From assembly GCF_032854445.1 (NCBI RefSeq), contig NC_088301.1, positions 10,662,281 through 10,726,280 on the forward strand: a stretch of DNA of 64,000 bases. The letters run 5' to 3'. The notes under the pieces were generated by a model. That model saw nothing but the letters and a program-made list of their open reading frames with translations. It was not told where the DNA came from and made no database searches. This stretch comes from Liolophura sinensis. Taxonomy: Eukaryota > Mollusca > Polyplacophora > Chitonida > Chitonidae. Shown piece by piece: positions 18,556 to 57,332 of the stretch. The position numbers and the translations under genes are program-made. Within the stretch, counting starts at the first letter, position 1. Each line of letters opens with the position of its first letter.

Positions 18556-18689
18556 GTTGCTAAACACTGTCTCCTTGGCTTGCAAATCAATTTACAGCTT
18601 GTATCTTCCATGATACATCTAACCTTATTACTTGTTTAATTCACTCTTTATATTTATTTATTGACTGATGGCTTCATTTAATTGATGTT

Positions 18690-19250
18690 CCAGTCAGGTG
18701 TTTCCTCCAGTGCCTTTCCCGTCAGGTGTTTCCTCCTGTGCCTTTCCAGTTACGTCTATCCTCCTTTGCCTTTTCAATCACGTCTTTCCTCCTGTGCCTT
18801 TCCAGTCAGGTGTTTCCTCCTGTGCCTTTCCAATCAGGTATTTCCCCTCTGTGCTGTTTCAGTCAGGTGTTTCCTCTTGTGCCTTTCCAGTCAGGCATTT
18901 CCTCCTGTGCCTTTCCAGTCAGGTGTTTCCTCCTTTGCCTTTCCAATCAGGTATTTCCTCCTGTGCCGTTCAAGTCAGGTGTTTCCTCCTGTGCCTTTCC
19001 AATCAGGTATTTCCTCCTGTGCCTTTCCAGTTACGTCTATTCTCCTTTGCCTTTCCAGTCACGTCTTTCCTCCTGTGCCTCTCCAATCACGTCTTTCCTC
19101 CTGTGCACTCTCCAGTTTCTTCCTGTGTCTTCCTGGACAGGTGTTTCATATTGTCATTTCCCCGTCACGTTTGTCCTCTTGTGTCTTTCCGGTCAGTGGT
19201 TTCTTTCTCTACATTCCCTGTCAGATGTTTCGTCCTGTAGTTTCCCTTCT
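18690..19250. repeat. 28-bp minisatellite array
   Basis: About 20 units containing 'cagtcaggtgtttcctcctg'. Because 28 is not a multiple of 3, three overlapping frames read through it, giving Ser/Phe/Pro/Cys-rich translations up to 246 codons. These are repeat artefacts. Confidence 0.93.
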
Positions 19251-19765
19251 CCTGGAGTCTCTCGGTGACCCCACGCACCTAGCCTCCCGGATTAATTACC
19301 ATCAATACGCTGACGGCGCTTGTTGTTCTCTGCAGTTATTCGCTTTCTGCATGACGAGGATTATATACCTGGGGAAAAGCTGTACAATTTGCTTCACTTC
19401 AGGTGTATGTGTGGACAATTAGCCGTTTTATCGCCGAGTCCTCGGTGCATTGTGGTGACACTCTAGGCTGTAGACAATAGGCTTTATGGACATTGTTGTC
19501 CACATGCCATTAACTCAGCGTTACAGCCTGTCCGGACGACTTGGTGCAAACATGATGGCCGATTTGTAAGCCATATATCTCGCTATAGTTCGTCAATATC
19601 GACAATCACACATAATGGCCACTGCAGACTGAATACTGGCAAGTTCATTATAACCTGTGCTTTACTGAACAAACCTTCGGAACGAGAGGAGACAGATAAA
19701 ACCACTGCACGGAGAAAACGTCCACCATGCCAGTCATGTATCGCTTCTTTCATGAATATGTACGT

Positions 19766-20008
19766 CAGTTAAGATCATATGGTAACAATACGATGACCTG
19801 AATTTAATATGTGTACTTGTAGCGTTGACCTGTAGGTATTTAGACTTTGGATAGGGGTGTTTTTGAGGTATGGTGTAATGCTTTGGTCTTTGTGGAGAAA
19901 AATGAATCAATGATAAAATTCAATAGCGTTATGTCGAGTAACAAATTAGTGTCTATGTGGAATAAAAAAATTAATAGTGCTTGTGTGTTAAGGATGGCAG
20001 TTAAGAGT
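19766..20008. other. Unassigned spacer
   Basis: AT-rich sequence between the duplication and the 24-bp array, with nothing recognised. Confidence 0.5.
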
Positions 20009-20655
20009 TAACAGTTCGAGAGCGGAATATCTGAACAGTTCTTGAGGGCAATACCTAAACAGTTCTTGAGCGCAATACATGAACAGTTCTTAAGCACAAT
20101 ACCGGAACAGTTCTTGAGCGCAATGCCTGAACAGTTCTTGAGCGCAATACATGAACAGTTCTTAAACACAATACCTGAACAGTTCTTAAACACAATACCT
20201 GAACAGTTCTTGAGCGCAATACATGAACAGTTCTTGAGCGCAATACATGCACAGTTCTTGAGTGCAATACCTGAACAGTTCTTGAGCGCAATACCTGAAC
20301 AGCTCTTGAGCATAATACCTGAACAGTTCTTGAGTGCAATACCTGAACAGTTCTTAAACACAATACCTGAACAGTTCTTGAGCGCAATACATGAACAGTT
20401 CTTGAGTGCAATACCTGAACAGTTCTTGAGCGCAATACCTGAACAGTTCTTGAGCGCAATACCTGAACAGTTCTTGAGTGCAATACCTGAACAGTTCTTG
20501 AGCGCAATACCTGAACAGTTTTTAAATGCAATCCCTAAACAGGCCTAGAGCCCAATACCTGAACAGTTCTTGAGTGCAATATCTGAACAGTTCTTGAGCA
20601 CAATACCGGAACAGTTCTTGAGCGCAATACCTGAACAGGTCTAGAGCGCAATGGC
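20009..20655. repeat. 24-bp tandem array with palindromic core
   Basis: About 27 units. Each contains GAACAGTTC, a 9-bp palindrome around a central A, followed by 'ttgagcgcaatacct' variants. The period is a multiple of 3, so frames stay open on both strands: 8-residue repeats EQFLSAIP on + and LKNCSGIA or LRSRTVQV on -. Third-base variation does not look constrained, and no start context or signal peptide is present, so I treat it as non-coding. Confidence 0.93.
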
Positions 20656-48188: not shown

Positions 48189-48995
48189 TCACTTGGAGAT
48201 ACAGTCAGATGTCCGAGGGGAACAAAAGTCACCAAAACTGTATCCATGCGCAGCTGCTGATGACGTCACCTGTTGCATTGCTTCTGGCGTCAGTTGTGGG
48301 GTCCGTGAATAGAGAATGGCTCCCTCGTACATCCAGGCCCCCGTTCCCCCACAGTAGTACATGAAGATATAGCCGTGATTCTGGGAGTAGTCCAACACTC
48401 TAAACTCTTCTTGGTGGTCTAGTCCATCCTGAGTGCTGTTAAAGTTCAAAACTCCGCCATTCATTGGGTTTCTCTGAATTACGGTCTCCGTTACTTCCAG
48501 ACGTCTGACGCTGCCGTTAACCGTTCTGGCGTCGTATTGTTCCCGTACGCTGCCCCGATACGGCAGAGAACCACTGGTGTAAGTGGAAATCTGACAGTCA
48601 AAGCAGTCGTATATAGGGTTCTTCCCCTTTACGATGTACCATGGCCCTTGGATATCCGCCAGCGTGAAGCTGGTGAACACCGAGGTGGGTTTGCGACATT
48701 GAACAGGGTGATCTGGCGGCGTCAGCACCACGCATTGGTTATCGGTCACCGCGCATTTCATGAAGGCGTCGAATTTGGCGTCTGCGTAAGAGCTGAGGCA
48801 GATGAAAACGCAGGTTTGGTTGGAGCCGCACGGGTTTATACACATAACAGCATCTCTGCATTCCGAGTCCATCATACAGGTAGCCATTTCTGAAGAACAG
48901 TGGTACAACATACAGAATATATTCATCTGACCACCGGAAACGGCAGGCAACCCACATGAAGCCAACAGAAACAAGATCAGCACTTGAGGCACCAT
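48189..48995 (-). CDS. Secreted violaxanthin de-epoxidase-like lipocalin protein
   Basis: A 268-aa intronless frame with start context AATATGG (A at -3, G at +4). Residues 1-21 are a hydrophobic signal peptide ending in AVSG. Residues 28-100 hold 11 cysteines (28, 33, 40, 46, 52, 56, 62, 66, 81, 88, 100), the same count and position as the Cys-rich domain of plant VDE. Residues 105-258 are the lipocalin domain: GPWY at 117-120, NPIYDCFDCQ at 126-135, YIFMYY at 209-214 and ILYSR at 227-231, in plant VDE order and spacing. Three N-glycosylation sequons (N59, N160, N186) fit secretion. Plant VDE removes epoxides from violaxanthin using ascorbate in the thylakoid lumen; this protein lacks a plastid transit peptide and the Glu-rich tail. 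A role in carotenoid or other hydrophobic ligand binding or conversion outside the cell is inferred only. A TATATA lies about 150 bp upstream (49145-49150). Family assignment is confident; enzymatic activity is unknown. Confidence 0.92.
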   Translation of the reverse strand: MVPQVLILFLLASCGLPAVSGGQMNIFCMLYHCSSEMATCMMDSECRDAVMCINPCGSNQTCVFICLSSYADAKFDAFMKCAVTDNQCVVLTPPDHPVQCRKPTSVFTSFTLADIQGPWYIVKGKNPIYDCFDCQISTYTSGSLPYRGSVREQYDARTVNGSVRRLEVTETVIQRNPMNGGVLNFNSTQDGLDHQEEFRVLDYSQNHGYIFMYYCGGTGAWMYEGAILYSRTPQLTPEAMQQVTSSAAAHGYSFGDFCSPRTSDCISK

Positions 48996-50035: not shown

Positions 50036-51005
50036 TTTAATGTATAGCTTGTTAAACCTATGACACATAAACGTATAGCTAACGTATATAGTTTATTAAC
50101 ATAGAGTGTATTAATTTAGTTAATTAACGTATATAGCTTATTAACATAGAGCGTATTAATTTCGTTCATTAACGTATTGCTCATTAACATGTAACGTTTC
50201 ATTAACGTATATAGCTTATTAACATAAAGCGTATTAATTTAGTTAATTAACGTATATAGCTTATTAACATAAAGCGTATTAATTTAGTTAATTAACGTAT
50301 ATAGCTTATTGAGGCCTCCGTGGCTCAGTCAGTTAGCGCGCTAGCGCAGCGTAATGACCCAGGAGCCTCTCACCAATGCGGTCGCTCTGAGTTCAAGTCC
50401 AGCTCATGCTGGCTTCCTCTCGTATGTGGGAAGGTCTGCCAGCAACCTGTGGATTGTCGTGGGCTTCCCCCGGGCTCTGCCCGGTTTCCACCCACCATAA
50501 TGCTGGCCGCCGTCATATAAGTGAAATATTCTTGAGCACGGCGTAAAACACCAATCAAATAAATAAATAAAATATATAGCTTATTAACATAGAGCGTATT
50601 AATTTGGTTCATTAACGTATTGCTCATTAACATATAATTTTTCATTAAAGTATATAGCTTATTAACATAGAGCGTATTAATTTAGTTAATTAACGTATAT
50701 AGCTTATTAACATAAAGCGTATTAATTTAGTTAATTAATGTATATAGCTTATTAACATAGAGCGTATTAATTTAGTTAATTAATGTATATAGCTTATTAA
50801 CATAAAGCGTATTAATTTAGTTAATTAATGTGTATAGCTTATTAACATAAAGGGTATTAATTTAGTTAATTAATGTATATAGCTTATTAACATAGAGCGT
50901 ATTAATTTGGTTCATTAACGTATTGCTCATTAACATGTAACGTTTCATTAATGTATATAGCTTATTAACATAAAGTGGATTAATTTAGTTCATTAACGTA
51001 CAGTT
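50036..51005. repeat. 45-bp AT-rich minisatellite
   Basis: About 16 units containing 'gttaattaacgtatatagct' and 'tattaacataaagcgtatta', interrupted by a SINE at 50311-50572. Variants with 'ttcattaacgtattgctcat' recur at about 50160, 50607 and 50910. Confidence 0.93.
50311..50572 (+). mobile_element. SINE family 1, full-length reference copy, sense
   Basis: The TSD is tatatagcttatt at 50298-50310 and 50573-50585. It is complete: tRNA-like head 'cctccgtggctcagtcagtt' and 'gcgcgctagcgcagcgtaat', B-box-like 'gagttcaagtc', body 'cccccgggctctgcccggtt', 3' end 'gagcacggcgtaaaacacca' and tail (AAAT)n. The head is a degenerate tRNA-derived pol III promoter. The element has no coding capacity and would rely on a LINE for mobility. 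Confidence 0.95.
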
Positions 51006-54125: not shown

Positions 54126-54520
54126 AAAGTAGTCTACAATGAAGATGAATTTACGTTTCGCGTAAATGACAATGTGCGCGACGGAATGATGGTGTTTTCC
54201 CTAGGATCTGCGCCGACAGATATGCTGATCGATTAGGTGCAACATGTAACATCGTTGACAAGCATACGTGGGAAAATTTAAAGAGACAAAAACTGAAATG
54301 TATAAAGAGCGAAAAGTGCGAAAAGAAACTGTATGCAGATTGTTCTGCTAAACCGTTTAGTGTAGAAGACAAATTCATCGCAGATATCGCGACTAACAAC
54401 GATGTGGTCGAGGCAGAATTTATTGTTCTGGATGGCCAGGGTGAACCGTTACTAGCCCGCGCAAGCCCAGTTCAACTGGGTGTCCTAAAACTCGGATCAG
54501 TCTTAAATGCGGTACGGACT
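54126..54520 (+). pseudogene. Gypsy aspartic protease remnant
   Basis: MLID is followed by GATCNIVD in a shifted frame. A single-base loss at 54231-54237 hits the catalytic D-S/T-G triad codon itself. Downstream text (SAKPFSVEDKFIADI) fits the rest of a retroviral-type protease domain. Confidence 0.75.
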
Positions 54521-54639
54521 GACATTGAATTTTGGAATGAATTTAAGTCATGTTTCGAAGGAGTAGGGAAACTTAAAGATTATGAAGTAAATTCACATCG
54601 ACAAGAATGTTCGACCAGTGGCCAAGCCGACAGGCCGCC

Positions 54640-55330
54640 CCGTGTCACTTGCGAGACGAAGTGGACGCTAAACTCAAAGAACTTGAGGACATGGAGAGTA
54701 TCGAACGAACCGACAGCCCAGTTCACTGGGTAAGCCCTATCGCAGTAGTACCGAAATCTTCAGCCGAAATCGATTATGCGTAGGTATGCGACGCGCGAAG
54801 AAGGTTGTTATTCGCACGCGGCACCCAATACCGACTTTGGAAGAGGTTCTACCCGATATGAAAGGCAGCAAAGTATTCAGTAAGCTAGATCTGATGTGGG
54901 GTTACCATCAGATCGTGTTAGAAGAACGGTCACGTGACACAATGACTTTCGCGACACATCGCGGATTCTGCCGTTATAAAAGGCTGATGTTTGGGATTAC
55001 TCAGCCAGTGAGCTGTATCAGGACATTATACGGCAGTTACTCCAAGGATGCGGCGAAGGGGATAAAAATCTGCCTGATGACATCGTGATTGACGCACCAG
55101 ATGTTCGCGAACACGATAGACGCCTACCTCTCCCCGGAGGAAACCCACGGGGGAAACCCACGACCATCCGCAGTTTAGTGCTCGAGCGTTTGTCCGAAAA
55201 AGATATTGCGCTAAATCCAGAGAAATGCCAATTTCGCATTTCAGAACTGACTTTCATGGGAAACGAACTGTCTGAAAAGGGAGTTGGCTCGGCTCGCGCG
55301 AAAGCAGGCGCAAACGCTTCCTAGGATTGG
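54640..55330 (+). pseudogene. Gypsy reverse transcriptase remnant
   Basis: WVSPIAVVPK, then a stop near 54781. The frame at 54786-55088 carries KVFSKLDLMWGYHQIVLEE (motif A) and FCRYKRLMFGIT (motif B region). A frameshift then leads to the DD motif as PDDIVIDAP at about 55071-55097. LNPEKCQFRISELTFMGN follows. A SINE-derived patch at 55131-55173 is inserted in frame. Confidence 0.88.
55131..55173 (-). mobile_element. SINE family 1 fragment in frame within Gypsy RT
   Basis: 'gggggaaacccacgacca' and 'tccgcag' match the antisense middle of family 1, with 'ggaaacccac' duplicated. It adds about 16 codons between EHDRRL and LVLERLSEK without breaking that frame. Confidence 0.7.
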
Positions 55331-56034: not shown

Positions 56035-56930
56035 GTATTCGTTGACGGTTCGCTATACGCCAGGGAAAAAGAATACCGCTGACGCGTTGTCAAGATTGAC
56101 ACAGATAACAGAAAGATCTGCGCCGTCCCACAGAAACGTCGCAGAGGAATACATCAAACTTGCGGCGGAGCATTCCGTTCCAGCATCCATGTGCACAAAG
56201 CATTTCGAACTATCAGATGTTCGCGAGAGCACCCAGTCAGGAGACTGGAAGTCGGATAGAGTTTAGTGTTACCGGATTGTTCGGAATGAACTTGAGAGTA
56301 TAACGTAAATTATTTCTGCTTGAAACGAGAATCGTCCTTCCGCAACATTTGTGCATTCAAGTATTGAAACTTGCACATAACAGCCACCAGGGTATCATTA
56401 AAAAGGAAATGCGATTGCGAACGAAAGTATGATGGAGAGGTATCGATCAAGAGGCCGAAAATTTGTGCAAGAGTTGTCACCCTTGTCACCTGTTGCGCCA
56501 ACTACCGCGCCCTGAACCAACACAGAGACCAACTCGCCCGTGGGAACATTTGTCGCTTGACTTAATGGGACCGCTACCGCTCGGAGACACATTATGGTGC
56601 TTTCTTTATAGTCCGTACTATGGTGTCGCTATTGTGAAATCAAAGACGTTTGCCAACCTGGTACACAATTTGGACAGAATGTTTGCTACCTGTGGAATGC
56701 CATATTCCATCAAAACAGACAGTGGTGCAAACAGAAAACGGAATTATGCACCGTAAAGTCGAGAGGTAAAATAGAACAATCCTAAAAACATTACGAATTG
56801 CCCACGTAGAGCAGACTGACTGGAAGAGGGAACTCAACACATTCCTTCTTACGTACAGAACGACACCCCATGTCACAACTGGTGTTGGTCCTACTGAACT
56901 GTTCTTCGGGTGAAGACTTCGAACAAAATT
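56035..56930 (+). pseudogene. Gypsy integrase remnant
   Basis: An HHCC-type zinc finger ends in CKSCHPCHLL (about 56464). The core shows LSLDLMGPLP (first Asp) and KTDSGAN (second Asp, about 56715). TYRTTPHVTTGVGPTELFFG follows near 56860. Stops and frameshifts separate the parts. Much of the expected core between the second Asp and the third acidic residue is lost. Confidence 0.85.
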
Positions 56931-57094
56931 ACCGGACTTGAAAATGGACAGCCATGTTGGAAAAGGTTATGTAGACCAAAGACGCCGCACCACTGAACGC
57001 GGCATCGTGGTTGGAGACACTGTCTTTGTCCAACAACGAAGTGAAAGTAAAAATATTGTCGCAGTTCAGCATTTGTACGGAAATATCGAGAAGC

Positions 57095-57332
57095 TGAACG
57101 CAACGAGGCATTCACGCCTGGGGAGGATGAACCAATCCCCCCCCCCTCCCCCTCCCTCCACACACTCACGCGACGACACTGTGGAGGAACATCGTGAACC
57201 AGAAGCGCCTATAAAATGCGACGAAGCATTCGCGCCTGAGGAGGATGAACCAATCCCCCCCCCCCCCACACACACACACACGCGCGCGCGACGACACGGT
57301 GGAGGAACATCGTGAATCAGAAGCGCCTATAA
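57095..57332 (+). repeat. 117-bp tandem duplication in the pol C-terminus
   Basis: 'gaggatgaaccaatcccccc' and 'tggaggaacatcgtgaa' occur twice, about 117 bp apart. C-runs and a (CA)n/(CG)n stretch sit in each unit. The pol text ends in SNLPSRINDFIMD at 57396. Confidence 0.85.

Follow-up and report, generated by a model that had tools for sequence, protein, structure and literature searches.

What does a gene of the violaxanthin de-epoxidase (VDE) family encode in an animal? VDE and its relatives VDL and VDR are handled as proteins of photosynthetic eukaryotes in sections 8–10 of the review PMC13181403. The gene in question lies in a stretch of 64,000 nucleotides from the chiton Liolophura sinensis (NCBI RefSeq assembly GCF_032854445.1, contig NC_088301.1, positions 10,662,281 to 10,726,280 of the forward strand), hereafter the window. 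An initial annotation, made from the letters alone, had described its product as a secreted animal protein with plant-type VDE architecture. The gene is an intact, constrained, animal (chiton) member of the VDE lipocalin family, and its active site differs from that of the plant enzyme.

An intact VDE-family gene and its second copy

The initial annotation named no strand; frame 1 of the plus strand of the interval contains stops, and the coding frame is on the minus strand (Table 1). The translated open reading frame (ORF) contains GPWY, NPIYDCFDCQ and YIFMYY in the order claimed. The family profile PF07137 matched the protein with an E-value of 3.8e-49 and 167.8 bits (cut-off 25.7), so the profile search whose failure would have undone the annotation came out clearly in its favor. 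The match extends over protein residues 27–259 and profile positions 3–239 of 242, covering both domains, and a structure-database search matched PDB entry 3cqn (E 2.3e-17); the profile and structure matches together confirm the VDE-family architecture. When the window was shuffled 30 times by mononucleotides, no open run exceeded 191 codons, against 274 in the real sequence; this comparison and the profile E-value rule out a chance ORF. The existing database record of the protein (P0002, 232 residues) begins at Met37 and lacks the leader and the first two Cys. The contig that carries the gene is 60,359,117 bases long; the assembly as a whole comprises 632 contigs with a total of 609,464,459 bases.

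A search of this assembly with PF07137, in which introns were not modeled, gave two loci above the cut-off, the window gene and one on contig C10. The second copy (G000:C10:4557559-4558335, plus strand) is uninterrupted, lies on a 36.6-Mb contig and matches PF07137 with an E-value of 6.7e-43. It is 51% identical to the window protein over residues 7–267 (131/267, or 49%, in another alignment). Identity between the two copies is 61, 70 and 41% at codon positions 1, 2 and 3, respectively, with a nonsynonymous divergence (dN) of 0.43 and saturated synonymous divergence (dS). Third positions have thus changed most, as in a gene under constraint.

The bivalve-like models P0018–P0021, P0023, P0026 and P0027 all diverge after KW[QY][IV][IL], continuing with Gly, and P0026 and P0027 come into the conserved sequence at TFRC. 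These shared break points suggest introns at common places. Both chiton copies read through both points, so that their coding part lacks an intron. This difference may reflect retrocopying or loss of introns on the chiton side, or else their gain by bivalves.

Domain organization

Residue counts refer to 140 aligned rows, which were sorted by the analyst from names, list position and looks into 20 mollusc-group, 45 probable-protist (none bearing an organism name), 3 stramenopile-looking and 72 plant or plant-like rows. The mollusc group consists of the two chiton copies, 17 rows grouping with bivalves and one further row, P0028, with a long branch and an unassigned host. Fragments and odd models (P0018–P0021, P0023, P0025–P0027, P0029 and P0034) and the window protein's own record P0002 were excluded. 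Positions in plant numbering are those of mature Arabidopsis VDE, consistent with the residue names in the cited sections of PMC13181403.

The putative signal peptide, which suggests that the protein is secreted, is followed by a Cys-rich domain and a lipocalin domain (Table 1), with 16 Cys after the leader. Eleven of them fall at residues 28–100, exactly as the initial annotation had counted, with the correction that ten have plant counterparts: all ten conserved N-domain Cys of the VDE family are present, C28–C88 aligning with Arabidopsis C9–C72. Plant C7 has no counterpart, and the eleventh, C100, is a mollusc-group residue (20/20 rows; Gly in 43/45 and Asn in 2/45 probable-protist rows; in plants, Val, Ala or Ile for the most part). 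Up to eight disulfides may lock the protein; C131–C215 and C100–C258 are conjectural pairs among them.

The predicted fold contains a lipocalin barrel as in Arabidopsis VDE, as the annotation had expected. PDB matches cover residues 96–268 in at least one fifth of the rows, and thus the barrel rather than the Cys-rich cap. Animal carrier lipocalins (sandercyanin, crustacyanin, ApoD and bilin-binding protein) have the barrel in common with the chiton protein, with a weak sequence match to sandercyanin and crustacyanin, but their matches do not reach its cap. The classical animal lipocalin profiles PF00061 and PF08212 stayed below their cut-offs (18.0 vs 23 and 19.7 vs 24 bits).

Two plant features are absent from the chiton protein, as had been annotated. 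The first domain Cys, C28, comes after only 27 residues, a short leader in place of the long plastid-targeting stretch, which leaves no room for a transit peptide (judged by length; no targeting predictor was run). At the other end, 3 residues follow C265, compared with 100 residues, 28 of them Glu, after Arabidopsis C249.

Table 1. Features of the VDE-family gene, in window coordinates.
Feature	Position	Strand	Basis and remarks
Complete, uninterrupted ORF for a secreted-looking VDE-family protein (PF07137)	48189..48995	minus	268 residues plus stop codon, ATG to stop
Putative signal peptide, residues ~1-22	48930..48995	minus	Hydrophobic leader MVPQVLILFLLASCGLPAVSG, judged by eye; low structure-model confidence here
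Cys-rich helical domain, residues 28-100	48696..48914	minus	Ten counterparts of plant C9-C72, and C100 of the mollusc group
Lipocalin domain (barrel and C-terminal helix), residues 103-268	48192..48689	minus	Structure matches and predicted fold
NPIYDCFDCQ, residues 126-135	48591..48620	minus	D130, D133, C134 and Q135 equal plant D114, D117, C118 and Q119; C131 at plant A115
E196-E197-F198, in place of plant D177-D178-W179	48402..48410	minus	Glu for the catalytic Asp and Phe for the cavity Trp
Y214, equal to plant Y198	48354..48356	minus	Retained, by alignment

Active-site residues

The window protein shares much of the plant VDE framework (Arabidopsis P0078; PDB 3cqn and 3cqr). Besides the PF07137 fold and the ten N-domain Cys, it retains D98, D114, D117, C118, Q119, Y197, Y198, Y214 and C249 in plant numbering. 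The catalytic Tyr and both ascorbate contacts, D114 and Q119, are therefore present (as Y214, D130 and Q135). Unlike plant VDE, it carries D177E, D178E, W179F, H121S, F123Y, F155V, Q153E, R138D and D206W replacements, and extra Cys at its residues 100, 131, 215 and 258.

Mutation of D177 or Y198 abolishes VDE activity according to PMC13181403. D177 is invariant in the plant or plant-like rows (72/72) and is Glu in the chiton protein. In the mollusc group this position is occupied by Glu in 8 rows, Ser in 8, Thr in 2 and Gln in 1, with one gap; elsewhere it is Glu in 43/45 and Asp in 2/45 probable-protist rows, and Glu in all three stramenopile-looking rows. The substrate-cavity W179 is kept in 17/20 mollusc-group rows, the exceptions being Phe and Tyr in the two chiton copies and one gap. 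The pH-trigger H121, present in 72/72 plant or plant-like rows, is S137 in the window protein and Ser or Thr throughout the mollusc group. The C10 copy has His at catalytic Y198, Asn at 117 and CPASDCFNCQ in place of NPIYDCFDCQ and, to judge from these replacements, is drifting from the plant active site. With D177, W179 and H121 all replaced, and Y198 lost as well in the second copy, a plant-type function of the protein is not supported.

The pair Glu 177 and Tyr 198 is instead the state of VDL and VDR, both of which carry Glu at 177; VDL is catalytically active on epoxy-xanthophylls (PMC13181403, section 10). The algal and plant VDL/VDR proteins also have the Cys-rich domain, and the same section describes the VDL tail as reduced or absent. 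Their models retain W179 according to the Figure 4 legend of that review, in contrast to Phe in the chiton, and their hosts are photosynthetic.

Several positions set the molluscs and the probable protists apart from plants. Cys at 115 and 199 is found in 20/20 mollusc-group and 45/45 probable-protist rows, and Glu at 209 in 20/20 and 44/45, respectively; the plant rows lack all three. The stramenopile-looking rows have Cys at 115, but not at 199. The probable-protist proteins differ from the chiton protein in their low identity (23–27% for five aligned rows; 27–32% by local alignment), in keeping W179 (45/45), in having Leu at 121 in 33/45 rows and in a longer inter-domain stretch.

Relatives and evolutionary relationships

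A first search, of 5.8 billion proteins, returned five rows, including P0002, the existing record of the window protein. A second search, with a five-row alignment, returned 35 rows, own record and query rows counted. Nine of these carry organism names, all of bivalves from eight genera: Pinctada, Dreissena (two rows), Mercenaria, Mya, Mactra, Sinanodonta, Saccostrea and Ylistrum. The search required shared five-residue words and similar length, and is not proof of absence in gastropods, cephalopods or other animals. Because these genera span Pteriomorphia, Palaeoheterodonta and Heterodonta, the gene looks old within bivalves. The bivalve proteins, among them Pinctada imbricata P0004, Mya arenaria P0006, Mercenaria P0007, Saccostrea P0013 and Ylistrum P0015, are 36–46% identical to the window protein, and have the same two-domain layout, Cys at C100, C131, C215 and C258, and no Glu tail. 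Position 177 distinguishes some of them: it is Ser or Thr, combined with W179, in Pinctada, Saccostrea and Ylistrum, compared with Glu and F179 in the chiton.

The Mya record is named 'VDE-like protein', and VDE-family proteins are already on record in bivalves, which makes the find less surprising than the initial annotation claimed. In a screen of the open-access literature by titles and the beginnings of abstracts, with subscription papers and preprints outside the search, PMC5499747 alone concerned an animal VDE-family gene; the other matches included two papers on kleptoplastic sea slugs. A passage of that paper lists VDE as one of five reductase families unique to the Manila clam among four molluscs, and an antioxidant role was proposed.

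A third search, with a ten-row alignment, returned 1418 proteins; among the 120 listed were a large probable-protist group and plant VDEs. The probable-protist group (P0030–P0033, P0035, P0037–P0075 and P0077) consists mostly of proteins of ~300–340 residues from short contigs, P0050 and P0072 coming from EukProt transcriptomes. A search for a prokaryotic or viral source with the single pattern [YF]DCFDCQ, a weak test, gave 15 viral-contig and 45 genome-contig matches, none of them confirmed relatives.

In a 46-row tree, the mollusc rows form one group (support 87/81, not starred) beside P0028 and the probable-protist group, with a joint branch at 97/93. In a 35-row tree, from which P0028 and some near-copies were removed, the mollusc group has support of 94/91 and is joined to the probable-protist group at 98/90. 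Trees that join the molluscs to either the plants or the stramenopile-looking rows score 4.94 log units lower, yet neither placement is rejected (p-AU 0.068 each). The three stramenopile-looking rows do not group with molluscs in the tree. These trees are unrooted and have long branches, and they cover a minority of the 1418 proteins, with rows named green algal, diatom, VDL or VDR not among them. On sequence grounds, the window gene belongs to a mollusc branch (chiton and bivalves) of the VDE family.

The two chiton copies pair together (100/98), likely by a duplication inside the chiton line, which is represented by a single species. In the 35-row tree this pair falls among the bivalves, near P0011, P0017 and the Pinctada-, Saccostrea- and Ylistrum-type rows (90/85); bivalves without the chiton rows as a group have a p-AU of 0.445. 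The patchy distribution of named rows would fit a gene that early molluscs acquired from an algal lineage, although loss elsewhere is also conceivable.

Possible function

Our favored reading, at a probability of about 0.5, is that the protein is secreted and disulfide-locked and binds lipophilic compounds from the diet, probably xanthophylls. The Cys-rich cap and the lipocalin barrel behind it, locked by disulfides, would act in an extracellular or gut compartment, where a hydrophobic dietary molecule, probably a xanthophyll, would be taken into the barrel. If the ligand undergoes any chemistry there, it would be of a modified kind, with E196 and Y214 standing for D177 and Y198, rather than the pH-switched plant reaction. 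The ligand class, the compartment and the absence of plant-type catalysis are the most tentative parts of this proposal. It is preferred over the two rivals below because position 177 drifts in molluscs, the pH-trigger His is gone from all 20 rows and one chiton copy lacks Y198, while the Cys stay. Chitons are indeed algal grazers, as the annotation had supposed (PMC3093257), and passages of PMC3093257 and PMC6949322 report lutein, zeaxanthin, fucoxanthin and their metabolites in them.

Three points weigh against this proposal. Glu at 177 is the state of active VDL (PMC13181403, section 10), so E196 is compatible with catalysis. Y198 is kept in 19/20, D114 in 20/20, Q119 in 19/20 and W179 in 17/20 mollusc-group rows, and a plain binder would need none of them. 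Finally, carrier lipocalins match any lipocalin barrel, and the list of structural matches therefore gives no pointer to the ligand.

As VDL is active with Glu 177, the window protein could itself be an enzyme on dietary epoxy-xanthophylls, a possible but clearly less probable reading. E196 and Y214 would, as in VDL, open the 5,6-epoxide of fucoxanthin, diadinoxanthin or peridinin end groups, yielding de-epoxidised, allenic, acetylenic or ring-opened products. Both the VDL/VDR state of the catalytic pair and the retained D114 and Q119 agree with such an activity. Bivalves, moreover, cleave the epoxy ring and convert allene to acetylene in fucoxanthin and peridinin, and the passages of PMC3093257 and PMC6949322 that describe these mollusc steps name no enzyme for them. 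However, of the 18 mollusc-group rows in which position 177 is Glu, Ser or Thr, 10 carry one of the latter two, and Saccostrea has Ser, even though oysters contain mytiloxanthin (PMC3093257). Tunicates make the same metabolites, but none of the nine organism-named rows of the 35-row search is from a tunicate. In the window protein, W179 is also Phe and H121 is absent.

It is unlikely that the same fold serves a ligand unrelated to carotenoids, such as a bilin, sterol, fatty acid, signaling lipid or microbial compound. Lipocalin ligands readily change, and the structural neighbors bind bilins, retinol, progesterone and others. Plant residues that contact the docked substrate in PMC13181403 are altered (F155 to Val, Q153 to Glu). 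Nevertheless, two aromatic contacts stay aromatic despite their replacement (F123 by Tyr, W179 by Phe), and xanthophylls are the substrates of VDE and VDL in the examples given by that review, VDR substrates being unknown.

Algal contamination or a decaying copy, which might be suspected because photosynthetic eukaryotes are where the family is best known and because record P0002 is truncated, is rejected as scarcely credible given the 60.4-Mb contig, the second copy on another long contig, the bivalve relatives, the frame free of stops and breaks and the third-position pattern of change.

Other features of the window

Among the ORFs of at least 120 residues in the window, Pfam searches of 10 of 20 gave two matches, to a reverse transcriptase and to PB1, both of them below threshold. 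The former (PF00078, below cut-off) lies at 54687-55088, probably a retroelement remnant judging from this match; the adjoining ORFs at 54170-54733 and 56914-57315 have no Pfam match. A tRNA-derived element resembling a short interspersed element was recognized by eye at 50316-50565; it begins with gaggcctccgtggctcagtcagttagcgc and is embedded in a long AT-rich array whose units resemble ttaacgtatatagcttattaacata. Repeats of a similar kind occur near the C10 copy as well. Long open frames in several frames at 18669-19422 and 20008-20548 are built from tandemly repeated units resembling FPPVPFQSGVSSC and EQFLSAIP, and are not evident genes.

Implications

A conserved, secreted-looking branch with an altered active site in a chiton and bivalves asks what role this fold has without photosynthesis. 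The natural series of Asp, Glu, Ser and Thr at position 177 would be useful for probing the VDE mechanism, and the window protein is a concrete candidate for the uptake or modification of fucoxanthin, peridinin and diadinoxanthin by molluscs. In a bolder scenario, which we regard as quite improbable, a VDE-family gene passed from an alga or another protist into early molluscs and came to encode a secreted gut protein, with which chitons and several bivalve lines still open the epoxides of seaweed and diatom xanthophylls. If that were true, the gene would supply an animal enzyme so far missing from marine carotenoid metabolism, and an enzyme of light protection would have been repurposed for digestion.
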